Shown here: piece after piece, positions 24,422 through 62,359 of the stretch | Numbering within the stretch: the first letter of the stretch is position 1 | Layout of the letters: each line of letters begins with the position of its first letter | NCBI RefSeq assembly: GCF_001517975.1 | Contig: NZ_KQ950181.1 | Location: 18,023-82,022 of the forward strand | Direction of reading: 5' to 3' | Length of the DNA: 64,000 nt | Origin: Thermobifida cellulosilytica TB100 | GTDB lineage: Bacteria; Actinomycetota; Actinomycetes; Streptosporangiales; Streptosporangiaceae | Notes under the pieces: model-generated | Seen by the model: the letters and a program-made list of their open reading frames with translations, nothing else | Database searches by the model: none | Told to the model about the DNA's origin: nothing | Made by a program: the position numbers and the translations under genes

Positions 24422-24509
24422 ACCCCTTCAGATCCGGCGCGCGACCGGTCGGTTCCCGCCTCAGGGGGACTTCCCTCCGGGGTTCCGGGCTGCGGCGCAG
24501 GGTTTGGAA

Positions 24510-24549
24510 AACCTTTTCCCCAGTGTGTTCGGTGTGTTACTTTCTGTGC
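24510..24549 (+). promoter_or_regulatory. Promoter-like repeat element, copy A (before the lyase)
   Basis: Contains TTTTCCC (24514-24520), a 17-nt spacer and TACTTT (24538-24543), within a block from AACC to CTGTGC that recurs at 27565-27604. Spacing fits a -35/-10 pair whose -10 matches TAnnnT. Predicted transcription start is near 24550, just before the CelR-like palindrome, so a repressor bound there would block elongation or initiation. Confidence 0.55.
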
Positions 24550-24560
24550 ACACGTCGTTT

Positions 24561-24574
24561 TGGGAGCGATCCCA
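24561..24574. promoter_or_regulatory. CelR-type operator
   Basis: TGGGAGCGATCCCA differs by one base from TGGGAGCGCTCCCA, the 14-bp palindrome bound by the LacI-family cellulase regulator CelR of Thermobifida fusca. It lies 43 nt upstream of the lyase start. CelR binding is released by cellobiose, so the lyase would be induced with the cellulases. Confidence 0.8.
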
Positions 24575-24616: not shown

Positions 24617-26884
24617 GTGCAGCATCTTCCCCCCGGGACCCGGCGGCGCGGCTCCACGTGCGCCCTCGCGGTCCTCACCGCTCTCACCCTGGGCGTCACC
24701 GGCGCCGCCGTGCTCAGCGGCCCGGCCCACGCCGCCGCCGGATGCAGCGTCGACTACACCGTCAACCAGTGGAACACCGGGTTCACCGGCAACGTCACCG
24801 TCACCAACCTCGGCGATCCCGTCAACGGCTGGACCGTGCGGTGGACCTTCCCCTCCGGAGAACGCCTCAGCCAGGGCTGGAACGCCGAGTTCAGCACCTC
24901 CGGAGCCGAGGTCACCGCCGCCAACACCGCCTGGAACGCCGCCATCCCCACCGGCGGCACGGTCAGCTTCGGCTTCAACGCCACCCACAACGGGACCGTC
25001 GGCATCCCCGCCTCCTTCACCCTCAACGGCACCGTCTGCACCGGCCAGACCGACCCCGGCGGCCCCCAGAACCCCGAACAGCCGGAACAGCCGGAGGAGC
25101 CGGGGACGTCCGACCCCCAGCCCGACCCCGGCGGCACCCGCCAGGCCGAACGGCTCGACCGCGGCCTGATCAGCGTGCGCAGCGGCAACGGCAACCTGGT
25201 GAGCTGGCGGCTGCTCGGGTCCGACCCGCGGAACGTCGCCTTCAACGTCTACCGCGGCTCCACCCGGCTCAACTCCACCCCGCTCACCTCCGCCACCTCC
25301 TACTACGACTCCGGAGCCCCGGCGAACGCCTCCTACACGGTGCGCCCGGTCGTCGGCGGCGTCGAGCAGGCCGCCTCGCCCGCCTCCCTCAACTTCACCG
25401 ACGGCTACCTGGACGTGCCGCTCCAGCGCCCCCAGGGCGGCAGCGTCAACGGCTCCTCCTACACCTACGACGCCAACGACGCCAGCGTCGGCGACCTCGA
25501 CGGCGACGGCCGCTACGAGATCGTCCTCAAGTGGGAGCCCACCAACGCCAAGGACAACTCCCAGTCCGGCTACACCGGCCCGGTGCTCATCGACGCCTAC
25601 GAACTCGACGGCACCCGGCTGTGGCGCATCGACCTGGGCCGCAACATCCGCGCCGGCGCCCACTACACCCAGTTCCAGGTCTACGACTACGACGGCGACG
25701 GGCGCGCCGAGGTCGCCATGAAGACCGCCGACGGCACCCGCGACGGTGCGGGCACGGTCATCGGCTCGGCCTCCGCCGACTACCGCAACTCCTCCGGCTA
25801 CGTGCTGTCCGGCCCCGAGTACCTCACCGTCTTCGACGGGCGCACCGGCCGCGCCCTGGACACCGTCGACTACGTGCCCGCCCGCGGCACCGTGTCGTCG
25901 TGGGGCGACTCCTACGGAAACCGGGTCGACCGCTTCCTCGCCGGAACCGCCTACCTGGACGGGCGGCGGCCCAGCATGATCTTCTCCCGCGGCTACTACA
26001 CCCGGACCGTCATCACGGCGTGGGACTTCCGCAACGGGCGGCTGAGCAGGCGCTGGACCTTCGACACCAACAGTTCCACCAACGTCGGACGCGGCTACGA
26101 CGGCCAGGGCTTCCACTCCCTGTCCATCGCCGACGCCGACGGCGACGGCCGCGACGAGGTCATGTTCGGCGCGATGGCCGTCGACGACAACGGAAACGGC
26201 ATGTGGACCACCGGGTACGGGCACGGCGACGCCCTGCACGTCGGCGACTTCGTGCCCAACCGTCCCGGACTGGAGGTCTACGGCGTCTCCGAGAGCACCT
26301 CCCAGCCCGATGCGTGGCTCGCCGACGCGCGTACCGGGTCCACTCTGTGGCGCACCGCCCCCGGCAGCGACAACGGCCGCGGCGTCGCGGGGGACATCTG
26401 GGCGGGCAGCCCCGGGGCGGAGTTCTGGTCCTCCAGCGTCAGCGGCCTGCTCAACACCTCCGGGAGCAACGTCGGACGCAAGCCGAGCTCGACCAACTTC
26501 CTGGTCTGGTGGGACGGCGACCCCAGCCGGGAACTGCTCGACCAGACCCGCATCGACAAGTACGGCCCGAGCGGCGACACCCGACTGCTCACCGGCAGCG
26601 GCGTGGCCTCCAACAACGGCACCAAGGCCACCCCGGCGCTGTCCGGCGACATCCTCGGCGACTGGCGCGAAGAGGTCATCTGGCGCACCAGCGACAACTC
26701 GGCGCTGCGCATCTACGCCAGTCCGCACCCGACCGACCTGCGTATCCCCACCCTGATGCACGACACCCAGTACCGGGTGGCGATCGCCTGGCAGAACACC
26801 GCCTACAACCAGCCGCCGCACCCGTCCTTCCACATCGGCGACGGCATGGCCACACCGCCGTGGCCCGACATCTACTACCCCTGA
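24617..26884 (+). CDS. Secreted CBM2 - PL11 rhamnogalacturonan lyase
   Basis: A 755-residue secreted polysaccharide lyase. A signal peptide (about residues 1-40, hydrophobic core ALAVLTALTLGVTGAAVL, cleavage near AHAAAG) leads into a family 2 carbohydrate-binding module (residues 42-143) bounded by Cys in AGCSVDYTVNQW and GTVCTG, with exposed Trp residues. A Pro/Glu linker (PEQPEQPEEPG) follows. The catalytic part from about residue 175 begins RLDRGLISVRSGNGNLVSWRLL and contains repeated Asp-rich calcium sites (GDLDGDGRYEIVLKWE, DYDGDGRAEVAMKTADG, ADADGDGRDEVMFG), matching PL11 (YesW-like) endo-lyases that cleave rhamnogalacturonan I. CBM2 anchors it to cellulose. Start is GTG. A CelR-like site precedes it and a hairpin follows. 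Confidence 0.92.
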   Translation: MQHLPPGTRRRGSTCALAVLTALTLGVTGAAVLSGPAHAAAGCSVDYTVNQWNTGFTGNVTVTNLGDPVNGWTVRWTFPSGERLSQGWNAEFSTSGAEVTAANTAWNAAIPTGGTVSFGFNATHNGTVGIPASFTLNGTVCTGQTDPGGPQNPEQPEQPEEPGTSDPQPDPGGTRQAERLDRGLISVRSGNGNLVSWRLLGSDPRNVAFNVYRGSTRLNSTPLTSATSYYDSGAPANASYTVRPVVGGVEQAASPASLNFTDGYLDVPLQRPQGGSVNGSSYTYDANDASVGDLDGDGRYEIVLKWEPTNAKDNSQSGYTGPVLIDAYELDGTRLWRIDLGRNIRAGAHYTQFQVYDYDGDGRAEVAMKTADGTRDGAGTVIGSASADYRNSSGYVLSGPEYLTVFDGRTGRALDTVDYVPARGTVSSWGDSYGNRVDRFLAGTAYLDGRRPSMIFSRGYYTRTVITAWDFRNGRLSRRWTFDTNSSTNVGRGYDGQGFHSLSIADADGDGRDEVMFGAMAVDDNGNGMWTTGYGHGDALHVGDFVPNRPGLEVYGVSESTSQPDAWLADARTGSTLWRTAPGSDNGRGVAGDIWAGSPGAEFWSSSVSGLLNTSGSNVGRKPSSTNFLVWWDGDPSRELLDQTRIDKYGPSGDTRLLTGSGVASNNGTKATPALSGDILGDWREEVIWRTSDNSALRIYASPHPTDLRIPTLMHDTQYRVAIAWQNTAYNQPPHPSFHIGDGMATPPWPDIYYP

Positions 26885-26901
26885 CCGGCAGGCAGACCGA
26901 A

Positions 26902-26927
26902 GGCGGGCCGCCGTGCGGCGGCCCGCC
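26902..26927 (+). terminator. Hairpin terminator after the lyase
   Basis: A perfect 11-bp stem (26902-26912 with 26917-26927) with a GTGC tetraloop, 17 nt after the stop codon. Confidence 0.75.
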
Positions 26928-27150
26928 CCCAGTAGGCCTCGCCCCGCCGCCGACACGTCGTCGGCCGACGCCGCGCGGCGCGCCCGGATGCCGGGGGACA
27001 GCCGGTCGGCCTGGCCCGCCTCTCGGACATTCCAGGCCGCGGGGTTTCGGCGCGGCCCGAACCCGCTTTGCCGTGTTGTCCGAGAGGGACAGGAGACCTT
27101 TTGCGTTTCGTGTGGCCCCTGGCCCGCACCCACGGTGAGAGAGAACCCGG

Positions 27151-27534
27151 ATGCCGCTGCTCAACCTGACACCGCACGAGGTGACGGTCCTCTCCGACGA
27201 CGCTCGGGTGATCGGGCGCTACCCCGCCGCGGCCCGGCCGGTGCGGGTGCCGGTGGTCCGGGTGCGGGTCGGCGAGGTCGACGGGGTCCCCCTGGTCCGC
27301 CAGTACCACGGGCGCACCGTACTGCCGGAGGAGCGCCCGGGGACCTGGTACATCGTCTCCACCCTGGTCGCCGCGGCCCACCCGGGGCGCCGCGACCTGC
27401 TGGTCCCCACGGACCTGGTGCGCTCCGCCGACGGCACGGTCGTCGGGTGCCGTGCGCTCGACTGCCACACCGGACCGGAACTGCGCCGAATGGTGTGCGA
27501 AGAGCCGGGAGCGGGAGAGGTAACGGAACCGTAG
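27151..27534 (+). CDS. Hypothetical protein of the LTPHE family, phage-like
   Basis: A 127-residue protein without recognised domain. It begins MPLLNLTPHEVTVLSDD and contains GVPLVRQYHGRTVLPEERPGTWYIVSTLVAAAHPGRRDLLVPTDLVR. Short proteins with the N-terminal LTPH motif and a central P-G-T-x-Y-I-V-S-x-L-V block are frequent in phages and scattered in actinobacterial chromosomes; their function is unknown. GAGAGAGAACCCGG precedes the ATG as a weak ribosome-binding site. It stands alone between the lyase and the intergenic region with the orphan promoter element, and may be a remnant of a mobile element. Function not assigned. Confidence 0.65.
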   Translation: MPLLNLTPHEVTVLSDDARVIGRYPAAARPVRVPVVRVRVGEVDGVPLVRQYHGRTVLPEERPGTWYIVSTLVAAAHPGRRDLLVPTDLVRSADGTVVGCRALDCHTGPELRRMVCEEPGAGEVTEP

Positions 27535-27564
27535 TTGCAGAAATAAATCAGAAAATAAAGCCTT

Positions 27565-27604
27565 AACCCTTTTCCCTGTTGTGTTTGTCATGTTACTCTC
27601 TGTT
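27565..27604 (+). promoter_or_regulatory. Promoter-like repeat element, copy B (orphan)
   Basis: TTTTCCC (27570-27576), a 17-nt spacer and TACTCT (27594-27599) repeat the layout of copy A. The flanking AACC and TCTGTnC bases are conserved too, whereas the spacer differs more. An AT-rich stretch directly upstream could act as an UP element. No CelR-like palindrome follows this copy. Confidence 0.5.
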
Positions 27605-27605
27605 C

Positions 27606-27840
27606 TGATCGGTGCTGGAAAACGCTGATCCGACCACTCTGCGTGTTGCCCGCGCCGACAACGCCGTGCCCCGACCGGCCCGCAGTTCTCCCGGCGTGCG
27701 GCACCGCGGGCCGTCCCGGCGGCCACAAGCCTGATACCGCACCCCTCAGCCGACACCAGCTTCGCCGCACCGTTGCTGCCGACCACCGCCGGGATGGGAG
27801 GAGAAGAGGGGCGGACGACCGCGGTCGTCCGCCCCCTTTC
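27606..27840 (+). ncRNA. Candidate small RNA between orphan promoter and hairpin
   Basis: If copy B of the promoter element is active, transcription would start near 27606 and end at the 14-bp hairpin at 27808-27835, followed by CTTTC, giving an RNA of about 230 nt. No plausible start codon with ribosome-binding site and actinomycete-like codon use is visible inside. The boundaries are predictions from promoter and terminator only; no known RNA family was recognised. Confidence 0.3.
27808..27835. terminator. Perfect 28-bp palindrome, probably bidirectional terminator
   Basis: GGGGCGGACGACCG and its exact complement form a 14-bp stem with no fixed loop. It lies 39 nt past the pgl stop (minus strand) and would also stop plus-strand transcription, where CTTTC follows. 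Confidence 0.7.
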
Positions 27841-27873
27841 CCGTTCGGCCCCGACAGCGCCGCCCCCGCGGCG

Positions 27874-28662
27874 TCACGCCGTGCCGGGAACGGAGAAGCC
27901 CGGCGGCAGCGCCCCCGCCGCCGCCCGGTCCAGCAGGAACAGGGTGCGGGAGCGGCCCCGCGCGCCCGCCGCGGGCACCTGCACCGGCCCGGCCTTGTCC
28001 AGCGCCAGACGCACCGCATGGGCCTTGGCCTCCCCCGCGGCGAGCAGCCACACCTCGCGGGCCGAACGGATCGCGGGCAGCGTCAGCGAGATCCGCACCG
28101 GCGGCGGCTTGGGCGATCCGTGCACCGCGACCACGGTCCGCTCGGTCTCGTACATCGCGGGCCGCTCCGGGAAGAGCGAGGCCACGTGCGCGTCCGGCCC
28201 CACCCCCAGCAGGCACACGTCGAACACCGGCACCGGGTCGCCGTACTCGGCGGCCTCCCGCAGCTCGTCGGCGTAGCGGCGCGCCCCCGCCTCCGGGTCG
28301 TCGCCGTCCGCCCCGTCCGACGCCGCCATCGGGTGCACCCGCTCGGCGGACACCGGCACGTGGTCCAGCAGCGCGCGGCGCGCCTGCGTCTCGTTGCGGT
28401 CGGCGTGGCCGGACGGCAGGAACCGCTCGTCACCCCACCACACGTCCACCCGCGACCAGTCGACGGCGTCGCGCGCCGGGGAGAGCGCCAACTGCTCCAG
28501 GACCGCGATGCCGATGCCGCCGCCGGTCAGCACCACCGACGCAGTGCCCCGCAGCGCCTGGGCGTCCACCAGACGGGTGACCAGGCGCGCCGCAGCGGCC
28601 TTGGCGAGCAGGTCCGCGTCGGGCTGCACCACCACGGTGGGCGGGGTGACGATCCGGCTCAC
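27874..28662 (-). CDS. pgl: 6-phosphogluconolactonase
   Basis: Hydrolyses 6-phosphogluconolactone to 6-phosphogluconate, the second step of the oxidative pentose phosphate pathway. The 262-residue DevB-type protein shows VVLTGGGIGIAVLEQL, VDVWWGDERFLPSGHADRNETQARRALLD (the WGDER signature) and CLLGVGPDAHVASLFPE. The GTG at 28662 overlaps the opcA stop (GTGA), so translation is coupled. It is the last gene of the minus-strand sugar-phosphate cluster and is followed by a 28-bp palindrome. Confidence 0.94.
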   Translation of the reverse strand: MSRIVTPPTVVVQPDADLLAKAAAARLVTRLVDAQALRGTASVVLTGGGIGIAVLEQLALSPARDAVDWSRVDVWWGDERFLPSGHADRNETQARRALLDHVPVSAERVHPMAASDGADGDDPEAGARRYADELREAAEYGDPVPVFDVCLLGVGPDAHVASLFPERPAMYETERTVVAVHGSPKPPPVRISLTLPAIRSAREVWLLAAGEAKAHAVRLALDKAGPVQVPAAGARGRSRTLFLLDRAAAGALPPGFSVPGTA

Positions 28663-29585
28663 GACGGCACCTCCGCTTCGCTCAACCGCTCCACCATGGC
28701 CTTCGCCGCGGCCTCGTACATCTCGTCGGAATCCAGGCGGCGCAGCTCCTCGGCGAGGTACTCGGCGGTGCGGCGCCGCGACAGCGCCACCGTCTGCGCC
28801 GGACGGCCCGGGCGGTGCAGGGTGGCCACCCGGCCGTCCTTGCGGCTGATGGTGATGGGGCCGTCCTCGGTGTACAGGACCGCCTCGGTGATGCCGGGGC
28901 CGGTGGAGACGCGGCGCCGCGCCGGGACCTCCAGTTGCCGCGCCAGCCATGCGGCCAGCAGGTCGGCGCTGGGCAGGTGCGCCTCGGCGGCGACCTCCAC
29001 GCCGGTGATCCAACTGCACGGCTGGTCCATGGTGGAGGCCAGCAGGGAGCGCCACGGCGTGGTGCGGGTCCAGGACAGGTCGGTGTCGCCGGGATGGTAG
29101 TGGCGGACGCGCTCCACCAGGTCGGCGACCGGGTCGGCGGCGCGGTGGGAGTCGGTGATGCGCCGGTTGGCGAGCCGCCCCACCGGGTCGGCCACCGGAT
29201 TGGCGGGGCCGACGCCCGGCCACCACGCCACCACCGGGGAGTCGGGCACCAGCAGCGGCGTGACCACCGAGTCGGCGTGCTCGGCGAGCGGCCCGTACAG
29301 CCGCAGCAGCAGGGTCTCGCCCGGACCGGACGTGCCGGGGCGGCGGATCTCGGCGTCGATCGCCGGTTCGGTGTCGGGATCGCGCAGGATCAGCGCGATC
29401 ACCCGGCTGGGGTGTTCGCGCCCGGCCTCGGTGGCGGCCTGCACCGCGTCGTAGTGGTCGGCCTCGTCGGTGACGATGACCAGGGTGAGGACGAGGTTCA
29501 TCGCGCCGCCGCCGACACTGCGCCGCTCGGCGGCCAGCTCCTCGACGATCTGCGCGGTCGTGGTTCGCGGAAGATACAGGGTCAA
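28659..29585 (-). CDS. opcA: Glucose-6-phosphate dehydrogenase assembly protein OpcA
   Basis: A 308-residue OpcA protein, found with Zwf in cyanobacteria and actinobacteria. In cyanobacteria it activates and oligomerises glucose-6-phosphate dehydrogenase in response to redox state. Actinobacterial features are the start MTLYLPRTTTAQIVEELA, LVLTLVIVTDEADHYDAV, and VVAWWPGVGPANP. The start codon is TTG at 29585. Zwf lies 106 nt upstream and pgl overlaps downstream, the usual zwf-opcA-pgl order. Confidence 0.94.
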   Translation of the reverse strand: MTLYLPRTTTAQIVEELAAERRSVGGGAMNLVLTLVIVTDEADHYDAVQAATEAGREHPSRVIALILRDPDTEPAIDAEIRRPGTSGPGETLLLRLYGPLAEHADSVVTPLLVPDSPVVAWWPGVGPANPVADPVGRLANRRITDSHRAADPVADLVERVRHYHPGDTDLSWTRTTPWRSLLASTMDQPCSWITGVEVAAEAHLPSADLLAAWLARQLEVPARRRVSTGPGITEAVLYTEDGPITISRKDGRVATLHRPGRPAQTVALSRRRTAEYLAEELRRLDSDEMYEAAAKAMVERLSEAEVPS

Positions 29586-32959: not shown

Positions 32960-33017
32960 GGCGATTGGTCCTTCCTCTTCTCGCACACGGTCACTGCAAT
33001 TGTTGCCGTCCGCGGCA

Positions 33018-33032
33018 CCGAATGGAATTCGG
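33018..33032. promoter_or_regulatory. Inverted repeat upstream of pgi
   Basis: CCGAATGGAATTCGG has perfect 6-bp arms around a GGA centre, 59 nt upstream of the pgi start in the 154-nt tal-pgi gap. It may be an operator for a sugar-responsive regulator; no partner gene is adjacent. Confidence 0.3.
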
Positions 33033-33113
33033 AGAGAGGGGATGGGCGGGGGCTCCGTCGCCCCGTTCCGGCAAAAAGGCTGATGGCGGTGGAACGGAGG
33101 AGAAAGTGAATTC

Positions 33114-34220
33114 TCAGGAGTGCGCGGCGAGCTGCTGGGAGACGCGCTCCAGCAGCTCCTCCCAGGACGTGACGAACTTGTCGACGCCCTCGGCCTCCAG
33201 TTTCTCCACCACGTCGGCCAGGTTCACGCCGACCGCCTCCACCGCGTCCAGGTGGGCGCGCGCTGCCTCGTAACTGCCGCGCACCGTGTCGCCGGTGATC
33301 CGGGCGTGGTCGGCCACCGCCTCCAGCGTGGCCCGCGGCATGGTGTTCACCGTGCCGGGGGCGACCAGCTCGGTCACGTACAGGGTGTCCGGCAGCTCCG
33401 GGTCCTTCACGCCGGTGGACGCCCACAGGGGGCGCTGCGGACGCGCCCCGGCCGCCGCCAGCGCGGCCCACCGCTCGCCGGAGAAGACCTCCTCGTAGGC
33501 GGCGTAGGCGAGCCGGGCGTTGGCCAGCGCGGTCTTGCCGCGCAGCGCCACCGCCTCCTCGGTGCCGATCTTCGCCAGCCGCGCGTCCACCTCGGTGTCC
33601 ACCCGGCTGACGAAGAACGACGCCACCGAGTGGATCGAGGACAGGTCGCGGCCGGCCTCGCGGGCCTGCTCCAAGCCGGCGAGGAACGCCTCCATCACCG
33701 CCCGGTAGCGCTCCAGCGAGAAGATCAGGGTCACGTTGACGCTGATGCCCTCGGCCAGGGCGGCGGTGATGGCGGGCAGGCCCTCGACCGTCGCGGGGAT
33801 CTTGATCATCAGGTTGGGCCGGTCCACCAGCCACCACAGCGCCCGCGCCTCGGCGAGGGTCCGCTCGGTGTCGCGCGCCAGGCGGGGGTCGACCTCCAGC
33901 GACACGCGGCCGTCCACGCCGCCGCTGGCCTCGTAGACCGGGCGCAGCACGTCCGCACCCCAGCGGATGTCGTAGGCGGTGACGGAGCGCACCGCCTCCT
34001 CCACCGACACCCCGCGCACCGCCAGGTCGCGCAGTTGGGAGTCGTAGGCGTCGCCCTCGGACAAGGCCTTGGCGAAGATCGTGGGATTGGAGGTGACCCC
34101 CACGACGCCGCGTTCGGCGACCAGCGCGGCCAGGCCGCCGCTGCGCAGTTGCTGCCTGCTGATGTCGTCCAACCAGACGGACACGCCTGCGTCGGAGAGC
34201 TGCTGAAGTGGGCTGCCCAT
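33114..34220 (-). CDS. tal: Transaldolase
   Basis: Transfers a three-carbon dihydroxyacetone unit between sugar phosphates in the non-oxidative pentose phosphate pathway. The 368-residue protein has [13 protein letters not shown] near residue 50 and the Schiff-base Lys in [13 protein letters not shown]. The substrate loop is [17 protein letters not shown]. The ATG at 34220 matches the family start ([22 protein letters not shown]), with GAGGAG 11 nt upstream. It follows tkt with a hairpin in between. Confidence 0.95.
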
Positions 34221-42619: not shown

Positions 42620-42708
42620 GGGGGTGCTCCTTCGGTACGGCTGGCCCTCGGGTGCGGCGGGAGACACCGCAGACCGGGTGATGGGGAGTCGCACGTCACA
42701 TTTAATCT

Positions 42709-42717
42709 AACAGTGTT
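42709..42717. promoter_or_regulatory. Putative TetR operator in the divergent promoter
   Basis: AACAGTGTT is a perfect 9-bp palindrome in an AT-rich patch (42699-42725) between the divergent ligase and TetR genes; some outer positions (42705/42721, 42704/42722) are also symmetric. Location and composition suit an autoregulatory operator. Confidence 0.45.
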
Positions 42718-42838
42718 CGGTTTGTGAAGACCGACCGGGATGCCGTCCCGTCCTCGTTCCTGGCCGATACTTGAGGCGATCCGAGCTGAGCGCCCACACG
42801 GGGGAGCGCCGGTCACGAGGGGAAGGACGGGGTTTGCT

Positions 42839-53850: not shown

Positions 53851-55262
53851 TGACGTCTACCGCGCACCCCGAGCTCGAAGGGCTCGGTACCTATGAGTAC
53901 GGCTGGGCCGACCCCGACGTGGCCGGCGCCTCGGCGCGCCGCGGCCTCGACGAGGAGGTCGTCCGTGACATCTCCAGCAAGAAGAACGAGCCCGAGTGGA
54001 TGCTGGACCTGCGCCTGAAGGCGCTCCGGCTGTTCACCAAGAAGCCGCTGCCGAACTGGGGTGCCGACCTGTCGAAGATCGACTTCGACAACATCAAGTA
54101 CTTCGTGCGGTCCACGGAGAAGCAGGCCACCTCCTGGGAGGAGCTGCCCGAGGACATCCGCCGCACCTACGACAAGCTGGGCATCCCCGAGGCCGAGAAG
54201 CAGCGCCTGGTCGCCGGGGTGGCCGCGCAGTACGAGTCCGAGGTCGTCTACCACCAGATCCGCGAGGACCTGGAGGCCCAGGGCGTCATCTTCCTGGACA
54301 CCGACACCGCGCTCAAGGAGCACCCCGAGCTGTTCCAGGAGTACTTCGGCACCGTCATCCCGCCCGGCGACAACAAGTTCGCCGCGCTGAACACCGCGGT
54401 GTGGAGCGGCGGCTCCTTCGTCTACGTGCCCAAGAACGTGCACGTGGAGATCCCGTTGCAGGCCTACTTCCGGATCAACACCGAGAACATGGGCCAGTTC
54501 GAGCGGACGCTGATCATCGTGGACGAGGGCGCCTACGTCCACTACGTCGAGGGCTGCACCGCGCCGATCTACAAGTCGGACTCGCTGCACTCCGCGGTCG
54601 TCGAGATCATCGTCAAGAAGAACGCCCGCTGCCGCTACACGACCATCCAGAACTGGTCGAACAACGTCTACAACCTGGTCACCAAGCGCGCCGTCGCCTA
54701 CGAGGGCGCCACCATGGAGTGGATCGACGGCAACATTGGCTCCCAGGTCACCATGAAGTACCCGGCGGTCTACCTGATGGGCGAGCACGCCAAGGGCGAG
54801 ACCCTGTCCATCGCCTTCGCCGGGGCGGGCCAGCACCAGGACACCGGCTCCAAGATGGTGCACTGCGCGCCGCACACCTCCTCGACCATCGTCTCCAAGT
54901 CGGTGGCCCGGGGCGGCGGCCGCACCTCCTACCGCGGACTGGTCCAGATCCAGGAGGGCGCCGACCACTCCAAGTCCAACGTGGAGTGCGACGCGCTGCT
55001 GATCGACACGATCAGCCGCTCCGACACCTACCCGTACGTGGACGTCCGCGAGGACAACGTGGAGATGGGCCACGAGGCCAAGGTCTCCAAGGTCAGCGAG
55101 GACCAGCTCTTCTACCTGATGAGCCGGGGCCTGGCCGAGGAGGAGGCGATGGCGATGATCGTCCGCGGCTTCGTCGAACCCATCGCGCGGGAGCTCCCCA
55201 TGGAGTACGCGCTGGAACTGAACCGGCTCATCGAGCTGCAGATGGAAGGAGCGGTCGGCTGA
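53850..55262 (+). CDS. sufB: Fe-S cluster assembly protein SufB
   Basis: The scaffold subunit of the SufBCD complex where clusters are built. The 470-residue protein has the long beta-helix and conserved C-terminal region [23 protein letters not shown], with Cys in VECDALL as a sulfur acceptor candidate, and ending [24 protein letters not shown]-type strands ([47 protein letters not shown]) are diagnostic. AGGAGG is 9 nt before the ATG. It starts on the last base of the sufR stop codon. Confidence 0.97.
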
Positions 55263-56767: not shown

Positions 56768-58809
<2,042 letters not shown>

Positions 58810-58821
58810 GAGAGGCGTGCC

Positions 58822-59298
58822 ATGAAACTCGACGCGATGTACCAGGAGATCATCCTGGACCACTACCGCAATCCGCACCACAAGGGCCTGCGGGAGCCGT
58901 TCGACGCCGAGAGCCACCACATCAACCCCACCTGCGGCGACGAGGTCACCCTCCGGGTGCTGCTCGAGTCCGCGGAGGACGGCAAGGACGCCCTCACGGT
59001 CGCCGACATCTCCTACGACAGCATGGGCTGCTCCATCAGCCAGGCCAGCGCCTCGGTCATGACCGACCTGCTCATCGGCAAGACCGTCGACGAGGCGATG
59101 GCCGTCCTGGAGGAGTTCACCGCGCTCATGCAGTCCAAGGGGAAGGGCGAGCCCGACGAGGGCGTGCTGGAGGACGCGGTGGCCTTCGCCGGGGTGTCGA
59201 AGTACCCCGCCCGGGTCAAGTGCGCGCTGCTCGCCTGGATGGCGTGGAAGGACGCGACCGTCAAGTCCCTGGCGACCCAGAAGGAGGGGGCGGTATGA
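58822..59298 (+). CDS. sufU: Fe-S assembly sulfurtransferase SufU
   Basis: A 158-residue IscU-like protein that takes sulfur from SufS in Gram-positives. Zinc/sulfur ligands are Cys in NPTCGDEVTL, the DSMGCSISQASASVM motif, and Cys in ARVKCALLAWMAW. The Gram-positive insert is present around EEFTALMQSKGKGEPDEGVLED (about residues 95-115). Its stop overlaps the sufT start by 4 nt (ATGA). Confidence 0.96.
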   Translation: MKLDAMYQEIILDHYRNPHHKGLREPFDAESHHINPTCGDEVTLRVLLESAEDGKDALTVADISYDSMGCSISQASASVMTDLLIGKTVDEAMAVLEEFTALMQSKGKGEPDEGVLEDAVAFAGVSKYPARVKCALLAWMAWKDATVKSLATQKEGAV

Positions 59299-59657
59299 CC
59301 GACGGAAACGAGACCGCCCAGAGCACGCAGGCTCCGGCCGCCGAGGTGGACGAGGCGCTGCTGGAGGAGATCACCGACGCCCTCAAGGACGTCATCGACC
59401 CCGAGCTGGGGGTCAACGTCGTCGACCTCGGTCTGGTCTACGGCATCAAGGCCGACGACCGCGACATCGTGATCGACATGACGCTGACCAGTGCCGCCTG
59501 TCCGCTCACCGACGTGCTGGAGGACCAGGCCGCCAACGCGCTGGAGGAGTTCGGCCGCGAGGTCAAGATCAACTGGGTCTGGATGCCGCCGTGGGGTCCG
59601 GACAAGATCACCGAGGACGGCCGGGACCAGTTGCGGATGCTCGGCTTCAACGTCTGA
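59295..59657 (+). CDS. SufT-like MIP18/DUF59 Fe-S assembly factor
   Basis: A 120-residue protein with a DUF59/MIP18 domain (PF01883): EEITDALKDVIDPELGVNVVDLGLVYGI, TLTSAACPLTDVLEDQA with the conserved Cys in ACPL, and VWMPPWGPDKITEDGRDQLRMLGF. SufT-type proteins help maturation of Fe-S enzymes. It closes the suf operon and a 15-bp terminator follows. The N-terminal 20 residues are a Thr/Ala/Gln-rich tail. Confidence 0.93.
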   Translation: MTDGNETAQSTQAPAAEVDEALLEEITDALKDVIDPELGVNVVDLGLVYGIKADDRDIVIDMTLTSAACPLTDVLEDQAANALEEFGREVKINWVWMPPWGPDKITEDGRDQLRMLGFNV

Positions 59658-59694
59658 GGCCGCCGCGGTCCGGGCGCCCCTCGGGGCCCGGACC

Positions 59695-59739
59695 CGGCAG
59701 ACGCCCGCGTGCCCGCCCGGCCGCGGGCGTCTGCCGTTT
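59695..59739 (+). terminator. Terminator of the suf operon
   Basis: A perfect 15-bp stem (59695-59709 with 59722-59736) with a 12-nt loop followed by TTT, 38 nt after the sufT stop. Confidence 0.85.
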
Positions 59740-60135
59740 CCCGGCCCACGCCCGGGTGAGAGGGGAGGACGCCCCGGACAGGGGGCGGGCAGGGCGTACA
59801 GGACCGGGGAAGAACACGGAGGCCCTCCCGGGCACACCTGGTGGTGGGCGGTGCGGCCGGGCGGAGCAGGCCCTGGGGAGCGCCGCCGACCCGGCCCGGC
59901 GCGAGCTGCCGGGCCTGGAGGACGCCGCCCACGCCTTCGGGGACCGCCGGGGCAGGCCGCGCCTCCAGCAGACGCTGAGCGCGACCGGCGTGGGGCGCGG
60001 GCAGACCGACCGATGTCGGTGGCGACGACGGCCGGGCCCGGTGATCCTCCCGGTCCGCTCGGCCGCCCGGACCGCGCCGTCGGGGCGTTCCGGCCGCTGC
60101 CCCCGGCCTCACCCGCCGCGACGAGGAGCCCGTCG

Positions 60136-60204
60136 CGGCGTTGCGCGGCGGTGCGGCGCCGTCCCCCGGACCGGGAGGTGACGGGGCGCCGCCGCGCAAC
60201 GCCG
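60136..60204 (-). terminator. Long hairpin after the 714-residue gene
   Basis: A perfect 16-bp outer stem (60136-60151 with 60189-60204) with further pairing of GGCGCC inside, 11 nt past the minus-strand stop at 60215. Confidence 0.65.
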
Positions 60205-60214
60205 GGAGGCGGGG

Positions 60215-62359
60215 TCAGGCCAGCCGCTGCTGGGTCTGGAGCGGGGCGGAGTGCAGGGACAGGCGAAGCTGCTCGGCGATGTCCTCGTCGCCGCGGCTGC
60301 TCAACAGGTTGATCAGCTCCGCCGGGGTGCTGGTGAAGCCCTCGTCGGTCTCGTTGATCCGGCGGAAGATGATGTCGAGGGCCTCCTCGGGGGTGGCCGG
60401 AGCGGTGTAGCCGGTCAGGCTCAGCGCCAGGCCCAGCGGGCCGCTGTCGGAGGGGACCGCGGATGCCTGGAGCAGGCGGGCGTCCAGCCGGTCCCCGTTG
60501 ACGGTGATGAACAGCCGGTCCCCGGGCTGGGCGCCCAGCCTGCGCAGCAGCGGACGCAGCGAGTCGAACGCGGCCTGGTCCCGCCAGACCAGGACCAGCA
60601 GGTCCGCGCCGGGGCCGGTGAGGCACAGCAGGCGTCCCGGCTGTAGCCCGAGGTGTGCGGCGTACCCCGGGGGCACGGCGACCGGGGCGCCGTTGAGCTG
60701 GTCGATGGTGACGTCGACGCGGTGCCACCAGCGTCCGTCGGGGGCGCGGAAGCAGCGCGTCGAGGTGGCCACCGTCGGCTTCGGCGGCGCGCTCTTGGCC
60801 CCCCCGGAGCGGCGGCGGATGGGCAGGCCGTTGGTGGTGGTCATGGCCTGGGGGGAGGAGTACGCGGCGTGTCCGCCCGCGGGCTCGGCGGCGTTCAGCG
60901 GCACGCTCTCGTCGACCAGCACCTGTCCGTCCTGGATGCTGACCCCCGGGGTGCTCTGTAGCCATGCCCGCAGCACCGGGGGGCGGATGCCGATCTTGCC
61001 CAGGCGGCTCTCGGCCTCGCTCAGGCTGGGCTGGTCGGACAGGAGCTGGCGGGTCTGTCGGCGCAGGTGCCCGGTGTCGGTGGCGAGCAGCCAGTTGTCG
61101 TCCAGCCGCCGGTCGGTGAACAGCGTCATGACGACCCGCCACAGCGGGATGCCGAGCGAGGGCACGTCGACCGAGTGGTCGGGATGGGCGCTGACCAGGT
61201 AGTCGATGGTGGTGGCCACGCCTATGGTGTCGGCCAGGTCGCGCAGGTGCCGGGCCATCGGCGCGCCCACCGGGGAGTTGAGCCACTGCAGCAGGCGCTC
61301 CTCGACGGTGCGCTGCGCGCTGCGCAGTTCGCCGATGTCCATCTGGAGCTGGTCGGCGAGCAGGCGGATGCTGGTCGGCTCGGCGGTGAACAGCCGCTCG
61401 GTGGCGATGAGCCGCTCCAGGTCGTTCCAGTCCCGGCACAACTGCTCGAACAGGTCGATCAGCGGGTGCGTCCCCAGTGCCGGGGCCGCCTGCTTGGCCG
61501 GGGCCTCCTCGGAGGCGGAGGCCGTGGACTGGACGCGCAGCGCCTTGGGCGGTCCGAACGCCGGGCGGCGCAGGGTGCCGCCGGGGCCGAGCAGAGGGCT
61601 GCCGCCGCGCCGGGCCAGCAGCGGGACCGGCTCCTCGGAGGCCGGGGAGCGGGAGGAGGAGGGCGTGGTGGAGCTGTTCTCCTTCGCGGCGAGATCGCGG
61701 TCGCGCTGGGCGCGCAGGGCCCGCAGCGTCCGGATGGCGCGGGTGGCCGGCGTCTGCGTGTTCTTGGCGGTGTCGGTGGTGGGACCGGAGGAGTCGGCGC
61801 CGGTGGCGTCGGTGAGGTAGGCCAGCGCGTTGCGCACGTGCTCCGGGGCGGAGGCGGGCATCCAGTTCGCGATGGTGCGCACGGCCTCGATCATCAGGGC
61901 GGGGGAGGGGGCGGGGCCGCTGAGCGGCCCGCCGGTGAACGGCAGGATCGACTGCCACATGATCGTGCCGACCACCTCCAGCACGTCGCAGTTGCTGGGG
62001 AAGTCCCAGGAACGCATCGTCTGGGGGGAGGCGCGGACCAGCCGGTCCCAGTCGCCCGCGGTGGCCTGTACCGCGCCGCGTACGGGCTCGGCGACCTCCG
62101 ACAGGTCCACCGTGATCCCGCGCAGTGTCGGTACGAACTCGCAGACCTCCAGGTGGTCCCACTGTTCCACGGAGAGGCGGGCCATGCAGTGCGCCAGCCA
62201 GGCGGGGCCGGCGATGTCGAGCACCCGGGGAAGGGGGAGCGACCGCCACCAGCCGTCCACCAGCCGGGGATGCCGCAGGATCGCGGTGGTGCCGGGCGAC
62301 TTGCTCCACCGCAGGGCGGGAACGAGGTCGGTGAGGCTGATCGGCGAAACGGCGTTCAT
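60215..62359 (-). CDS. Large actinobacterial protein with possible sigma-region-4-like segment
   Basis: A 714-residue protein not assigned to a named family. Three parts are visible. Residues 1-185 are mixed helical (DIAGPAWLAHCMARLSVEQWDHLEVCEFVP). Residues 190-295 are a Ser/Thr/Pro/Glu-rich disordered linker. Residues 295-470 are helical; TERLFTAEPTSIRLLADQLQMDIGELRSAQ-type sequence there looks like the sigma factor region 4 or helicase-linked HTH, followed by SVDVPSLGIPLWRVVMTLFTD. A second linker precedes a beta-rich C-terminal domain (about 530-640, WWHRVDVTIDQLNGAPVAVPPGYAAHLGLQPG). ATG at 62359 fits a family-like start, with GGAGG 16 nt upstream. A nucleic-acid-binding role is possible but unproven. 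Confidence 0.75.
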   Translation of the reverse strand: MNAVSPISLTDLVPALRWSKSPGTTAILRHPRLVDGWWRSLPLPRVLDIAGPAWLAHCMARLSVEQWDHLEVCEFVPTLRGITVDLSEVAEPVRGAVQATAGDWDRLVRASPQTMRSWDFPSNCDVLEVVGTIMWQSILPFTGGPLSGPAPSPALMIEAVRTIANWMPASAPEHVRNALAYLTDATGADSSGPTTDTAKNTQTPATRAIRTLRALRAQRDRDLAAKENSSTTPSSSRSPASEEPVPLLARRGGSPLLGPGGTLRRPAFGPPKALRVQSTASASEEAPAKQAAPALGTHPLIDLFEQLCRDWNDLERLIATERLFTAEPTSIRLLADQLQMDIGELRSAQRTVEERLLQWLNSPVGAPMARHLRDLADTIGVATTIDYLVSAHPDHSVDVPSLGIPLWRVVMTLFTDRRLDDNWLLATDTGHLRRQTRQLLSDQPSLSEAESRLGKIGIRPPVLRAWLQSTPGVSIQDGQVLVDESVPLNAAEPAGGHAAYSSPQAMTTTNGLPIRRRSGGAKSAPPKPTVATSTRCFRAPDGRWWHRVDVTIDQLNGAPVAVPPGYAAHLGLQPGRLLCLTGPGADLLVLVWRDQAAFDSLRPLLRRLGAQPGDRLFITVNGDRLDARLLQASAVPSDSGPLGLALSLTGYTAPATPEEALDIIFRRINETDEGFTSTPAELINLLSSRGDEDIAEQLRLSLHSAPLQTQQRLA

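Follow-up and report, generated by a model that had tools for sequence, protein, structure and literature searches.

A predicted small RNA gene between a PL11 lyase gene and the convergent pgl operon in Thermobifida

The locus and its repeated promoter block

The window analyzed here is a 64-kb stretch (64,000 nucleotides) of the Thermobifida cellulosilytica TB100 genome. Within it, a gene for a PL11 lyase is followed by a small gene, by a second copy of the lyase promoter element (the orphan copy), and by pgl on the opposite strand. The features of this region are as follows, with a dot in place of the strand where none is assigned.

24506 to 24519 (.): inverted repeat GGAAAACCTTTTCC over the lyase -35 region; kept at all four lyases of the genus and in G067, absent at the orphan copy
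24510 to 24549 (+): lyase promoter element, with the extended -10 TGTTACTTT at 24535-24543
24561 to 24574 (.): CelR-like site TGGGAGCGATCCCA downstream of the lyase promoter, from a consensus scan
24617 to 26884 (+): PL11 rhamnogalacturonan lyase with CBM2 (Pfam PF21348, PF18370, PF00553)
27151 to 27534 (+): 127-aa protein between the lyase and the orphan copy, without a Pfam match
27543 to 27560 (+): A-rich tract ATAAATCAGAAAATAAAG upstream of the orphan promoter, presumably UP-element-like; largely conserved in all four genus members and bordering the aligned unit on its left
27565 to 27604 (+): orphan promoter element, with -35-like TTTTCC (27570-27575), GTGT, the extended -10 TGTTACTCT (27591-27599) and CTGT
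27606 to 27840 (+): predicted small RNA of about 235 nt, postulated from promoter, hairpin and conservation
27606 to 27655 (+): conserved block at the 5' end of the predicted transcript, whose start is placed 7-8 nt after the -10
27780 to 27804 (+): 3' conserved block CGACCACCGCCGGGATGGGAGGAGA, with a 16-nt core, GCCGGGATGGGAGGAG, invariant in four of four genus members
27808 to 27835 (.): palindromic hairpin, its T-tracts weak; in the alignment 51 of 52 cells are paired, and 3 of 13 pairs have changes on both sides
27874 to 29226 (-): open reading frame holding pgl (6-phosphogluconolactonase; Pfam PF01182, residues 202-427), convergent with the unit; its start as listed overlaps the opcA frame

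A first-pass annotation had proposed that a block of about 40 bp before the lyase recurs at 27565, and this repeat held up. The lyase copy (24509-24547) and the orphan copy (27565-27603) are identical at 30 of 39 bases, while the second-best place for the 39-base block in the 64-kb window reaches 21/39 and the top score in 200 Markov sequences of 128 kb was 24/39. The two-box pattern ascribed to both copies, TTTTCCC-N16-18-TTACTYT, is present twice in the window, and none of 100 shuffles contains it. Conservation between the two copies extends past the -35 and -10, into GTGT in the spacer and CTGT after the -10. The annotation had also suggested a search for further copies, and this search yielded a third: with at most one mismatch, the core TGTTACTYTCTGT has three sites in the organism's own 4.43-Mb genome (G000), which are the lyase copy, the orphan copy and a site upstream of cstA. 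Downstream of the orphan copy, where a hairpin had been reported at about 200 nt, there is a perfect 28-bp palindrome (27808-27835), 203 nt past the end of the element.

Conservation, coding potential and folding of the unit

Conservation was examined in the three other genus members (G001, G002 and G003) and beyond. A blastn search with 27540-27810 against 60 genomes (E <= 0.001) gave matches in 12. These are the four of the genus, among them the own genome and G003, whose match is split in two, plus eight others, each matching once over 33-60 bases. With the longer query 27535-27876, the aligned part runs from 27543 to 27841 or 27842, at 76% identity in G002, 70% in G001 and 62% in G003, so that the segment that the annotation wished to see followed in related genomes is kept in all four members of the genus. 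The ends of the aligned unit fall near the promoter and the hairpin. The unit is flanked by pgl in its own genome and by pgl, opcA and zwf in the three relatives. Among three 10-kb stretches from those relatives, the gene for the 127-aa protein is present solely in that of G001, and the unit, which is present in all three, is thus independent of that neighbor. A profile of the first 111 positions of the unit, which include the 5' conserved block, matched all four genus members, with one extra match in G002 at its lyase copy. Among 96 other genomes, its sole match at E <= 0.01 was the lyase copy in G067, under strict filters that lose weak matches.

As a control, 17 stretches longer than 100 bp were taken from the window as intergenic. 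One of these is opcA and another comes from the orphan region, which was measured separately because the gene caller took 26875-27759 for a gene. Among the rest, at least four are equally or more conserved (53851-53995, 59299-59437, 42623-42751 and 32981-33128): in G002 and in G001 alike, 90% or more of their length aligns, at 75-95% identity. The conservation of the unit is therefore no proof of function by itself. Three stretches returned by a scan of genome contigs, from a Firmicutes MAG, a Ruminococcus MAG and a Treponema record, were set aside as chance-like (near records may be omitted from that scan), and nothing in the plasmid collection matched.

The orphan copy had been described as preceding no recognizable gene. 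This agrees with a Pfam scan of the seven mechanically listed open reading frames that overlap 27606-27835, none of which matched at E 0.01. Indels in the body of the unit break reading frames, and a test for conserved reading frames found none that is kept; a 12-codon frame fails in two of the four genomes. The frame-breaking indels and the empty Pfam scan argue against coding.

With the hairpin included, the predicted RNAs of all four genus members fold better than shuffles (z -2.2 to -2.8), and with the hairpin removed they fold like shuffles (z -0.02, -0.66, 0.11 and 0.33), which rules out a stable fold of the RNA body. The alignment fold hints at a 5' stem with a few two-sided changes, but 5' pieces folded alone do no better than shuffles. 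The middle of the predicted RNA is variable, with indels. Rfam returned nothing at gathering score and nothing credible at relaxed thresholds. Across the family, the 3' block has matches in 85 of 150 genomes at three or fewer mismatches, which we read as noise; among the matches listed, pgl is nearby solely in the loci of the genus.

The pairing in the hairpin stands out from its surroundings, since positions slid along the alignment are at most 67% paired. On the pgl side, a T-tract of four or five is present in G001 and G002. The hairpin faces the convergent pgl and so may serve the pgl operon too; a two-way terminator for small RNA and pgl is its probable role. The annotation's central picture, a promoter and a terminator without a gene between them, is borne out to the extent that the unit is kept in all four genomes, ends near promoter and hairpin, and has a hairpin that covaries.

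Promoter type, separate control and origin

The element stands upstream of the lyase and at the orphan position in all four genus members, and a weaker form stands upstream of cstA in all four (gene identity from Pfam CstA). Over 40 bases, mean identity is 26.6 between orphan and lyase copies and 22.9 between orphan and cstA copies, the ends of the latter being padded. The -10 variants among the copies are TACTTT, TACTCT, TACGGT, TACGTT and TACCTT, with TGC sometimes replacing TGT, and TGN-TANNNT is always intact. Because the substitutions preserve TGN-TANNNT, we read the element as an extended -10 promoter. A YTTT box lies 18-19 nt upstream of the -10 and takes the form YTTTCC at the lyase and orphan copies. 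A simple standard scan detected neither a sigma-70 promoter nor a T-tailed terminator in the orphan unit, whose extended -10 element is kept in all four genomes. When the genus was searched with up to two mismatches, sites with none or one were found solely at lyase, orphan and cstA, the G001 lyase copy having two. Outside the genus, the lyase/orphan pattern had a hit in a single genome out of 96, where its spacer is unrelated; another pattern, matched by the lyase and cstA copies and not by the orphan one, had none in 196. The three copies form a candidate promoter family (lyase, small RNA, cstA) that points to carbon-linked control.

Two observations adjoin this family. The cstA upstream core is found at L022:1476-1515 and in L129-L132, with a weaker version, TGCTACCTT, in G001. 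In three genus members (L088, L090 and L082, near position 1500), TGNTACTTTCNGT with GTG upstream precedes a frame starting MTLWxWAEETA, and this site is a possible fourth promoter of the extended -10 type.

The lyase promoter carries sequences of its own. GGAAARCCYTTTCC lies over the -35 in all four genus lyases and in that of G067, a genome from another genus, and the inverted repeat GGAAAACCTTTTCC is a possible operator of a pectin-related regulator. The site at 24561-24574 is called CelR-like by a scan with a consensus that we take to be that of CelR. With at most two mismatches, this site follows the lyase promoter in G000, G001, G003 and G067, and the G002 site is more divergent; inspection by eye showed none in the promoter sequences of the orphan. 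The lyase copy thus resembles the CelR-regulated Thermobifida promoters, whose CelR sites are discussed in the available text of PMC3377646, in having a CelR-like site downstream of the promoter, while the orphan copy differs from them.

The suggestion that the RNA is expressed together with the lyase stood only in part. The core promoter is common to both, but the orphan copy has neither the CelR-like site, so that co-expression does not follow, nor the GGAAARCCYTTTCC repeat, and the same promoter core also precedes cstA. The simplest reading of these sequences would be a shared core promoter with separate control for lyase and orphan.

To place the unit in time, we turned to relatives of the lyase. 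At E <= 1e-100, PL11 relatives were found in 19 of 100 genomes, at 20 loci. Within about 1 kb upstream, TGTTANNNT is present at six of these (the four genus members, G067 and G079) and was not found at the remaining 14. The G067 lyase has the whole element and the CelR-like site, and the G079 version reads GTGTTACGTTCTGT. In G067 the lyase match (57062-59302, plus strand) and the pgl match (59550-60323, minus strand) are convergent and 247 bp apart, and no orphan unit was seen in the gap. In G079 a coding-looking stretch lies between lyase and pgl, again with no orphan unit found. Since both genomes have lyase and pgl near each other without the unit, this neighborhood and the lyase promoter look older than the orphan. 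The unit was probably acquired by the ancestor of the genus, perhaps when the lyase promoter was copied; loss of the unit in other genera and convergent evolution of a similar promoter are the alternatives. If transcribed, the locus could be a datable case of a small RNA gene arising beside a gene with a similar promoter, given a relative with lyase and pgl and no orphan. The G067 gap itself holds an inverted repeat, GATCTTGACGTCAGCG/CGCTGACGTCAAGATC (L169:1373-1428), which is probably a two-way terminator.

Interpretation and comparison with known RNAs

The block match, the conservation of the unit, the promoter-type substitutions, the covariation of the hairpin and the cstA copy together make a small RNA gene the best reading of the locus. 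We give a probability of about 0.6 to 27543-27842 being a stand-alone small RNA gene. It is probably a genus-specific gene of an ordinary kind, of interest for its promoter link and its origin.

In the mechanism that we infer from sequence comparison, for transcription and its start point as for regulation, pairing and origin, the A-rich tract and the extended -10 (weak -35 TTTTCC, TG-T-TACTCT) would start a non-coding RNA near 27606. This RNA of about 235 nt would end at the hairpin at 27808-27835, a probable terminator for the convergent pgl operon as well. Because the promoter family is common to the PL11 lyase and cstA, the RNA would be made when carbon supply changes. The purine-rich stretch GGGAUGGGAGGAG, which is invariant and directly precedes the terminator, is the likely working part of the RNA and would base-pair with C/U-rich sites in mRNAs. 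The unit would have arisen in the ancestor of the genus, between the older lyase and pgl.

Pairing with the 5' regions of lyase or cstA was tried and is not consistent across the four genus members. For the 3' block against the lyase, shuffles did as well in 2/200 cases in the own genome, 10/200 in G002, 119/200 in G001 and 84/200 in G003, and the sites differ between genomes. Against cstA, the 3' block showed no unusual pairing in any of the four, and the 5' block was unusual in G002 alone (2/200 shuffles). Sites complementary to the 3' block with at most two mismatches number 25 in G000, 40 in G002, 16 in G003 and 37 in G001, against 6, 7, 9 and 10 with a reversed control, in counts that do not control for base composition. 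As no pairing target is consistent across the genus, trans-pairing of the RNA is a guess from its conserved purine-rich stretch.

The strongest competitor, to which we give perhaps one chance in four, is that there is no small RNA with a role: the hairpin would be the terminator of the pgl operon, the element a leftover or spurious copy of the lyase promoter, and any transcript at most short and unstable. The convergent pgl in all four genomes, the T-tract of four or five on its side in G001 and G002, the unstructured RNA body and an ordinary level of intergenic conservation all fit this account. It leaves unexplained that the promoter is among the best-kept parts in all four, that a conserved 3' block lies outside the hairpin, past the expected end of pgl transcripts, and that the ends of the aligned unit lie close to promoter and hairpin. 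We consider it improbable that a regulator binds the shared block as its operator and that the block is no promoter, with the orphan as a decoy or distant binding site. At lyase and orphan, the conserved positions go beyond the -35 and -10 to GTGT within the spacer and to the CTGT that follows the -10, which would suit an operator, but the variation follows the extended -10 rule, the other copies lie at promoter distance from lyase and cstA, and a conserved unit ending in a hairpin follows the orphan. Slightly less probable still is that the element opens a very short protein, ATGTTACTCTCTGTTCTGATCGGTGCTGGAAAACGCTGA (27590-27628) giving MLLSVLIGAGKR, as a peptide or dual-function RNA: G002 has MLLSVLVGAGKR followed by a stop, and its codons, compared by eye, differ by four synonymous changes and one I-to-V, but the 12-codon frame is broken by one base in G001, its stop is absent in G003, no ribosome site was seen upstream, and its letters vary at the lyase and cstA copies as a -10 promoter does.

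A more ambitious version of the small RNA reading is speculative, and we think it unlikely: a recently born regulatory RNA gene, in which the pectin-lyase promoter was copied before pgl in the genus ancestor and drives a trans-acting RNA through which carbon starvation (cstA) and the breakdown of plant polymers would be linked to the pentose phosphate operon. If transcribed, the RNA would be an undescribed small RNA of Thermobifida, a plant-biomass degrader, as far as our literature searches show; the titles and abstract openings of the papers found on Thermobifida small RNAs, CelR or the lyase mention no small or non-coding RNA of this kind.

Several known RNAs invite comparison. 6S RNA is a non-coding RNA with its own promoter, and the candidate is likewise predicted to be non-coding with a promoter of its own. 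Identity with 6S RNA (RF00013) was rejected, as the score of 10.5 (E 9.1) stays below the gathering score of 46.4. Ms1 RNA/scr3559, the actinobacterial small RNA that binds core RNA polymerase, is similar in being intergenic, in its size class and in being found by place. According to the available text of PMC9130861, the search for Ms1 relies on a neighboring HAD hydrolase gene, and Thermobifida appears in a table of genera, taken here as those with candidates. Our unit lies between pgl and either the lyase or the 127-aa gene; this place, with no HAD hydrolase beside the unit, argues against Ms1 identity, though the authors allow for loss of the HAD-hydrolase placing. Finally, the cutoRNAs of Streptomyces, as presented in the available part of PMC3765725, have a convergent 3' overlap such as the small RNA and pgl would have at the hairpin. 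The Thermobifida pair differs from these in that one partner would be non-coding with its own predicted promoter, and not the 3' end of a gene.
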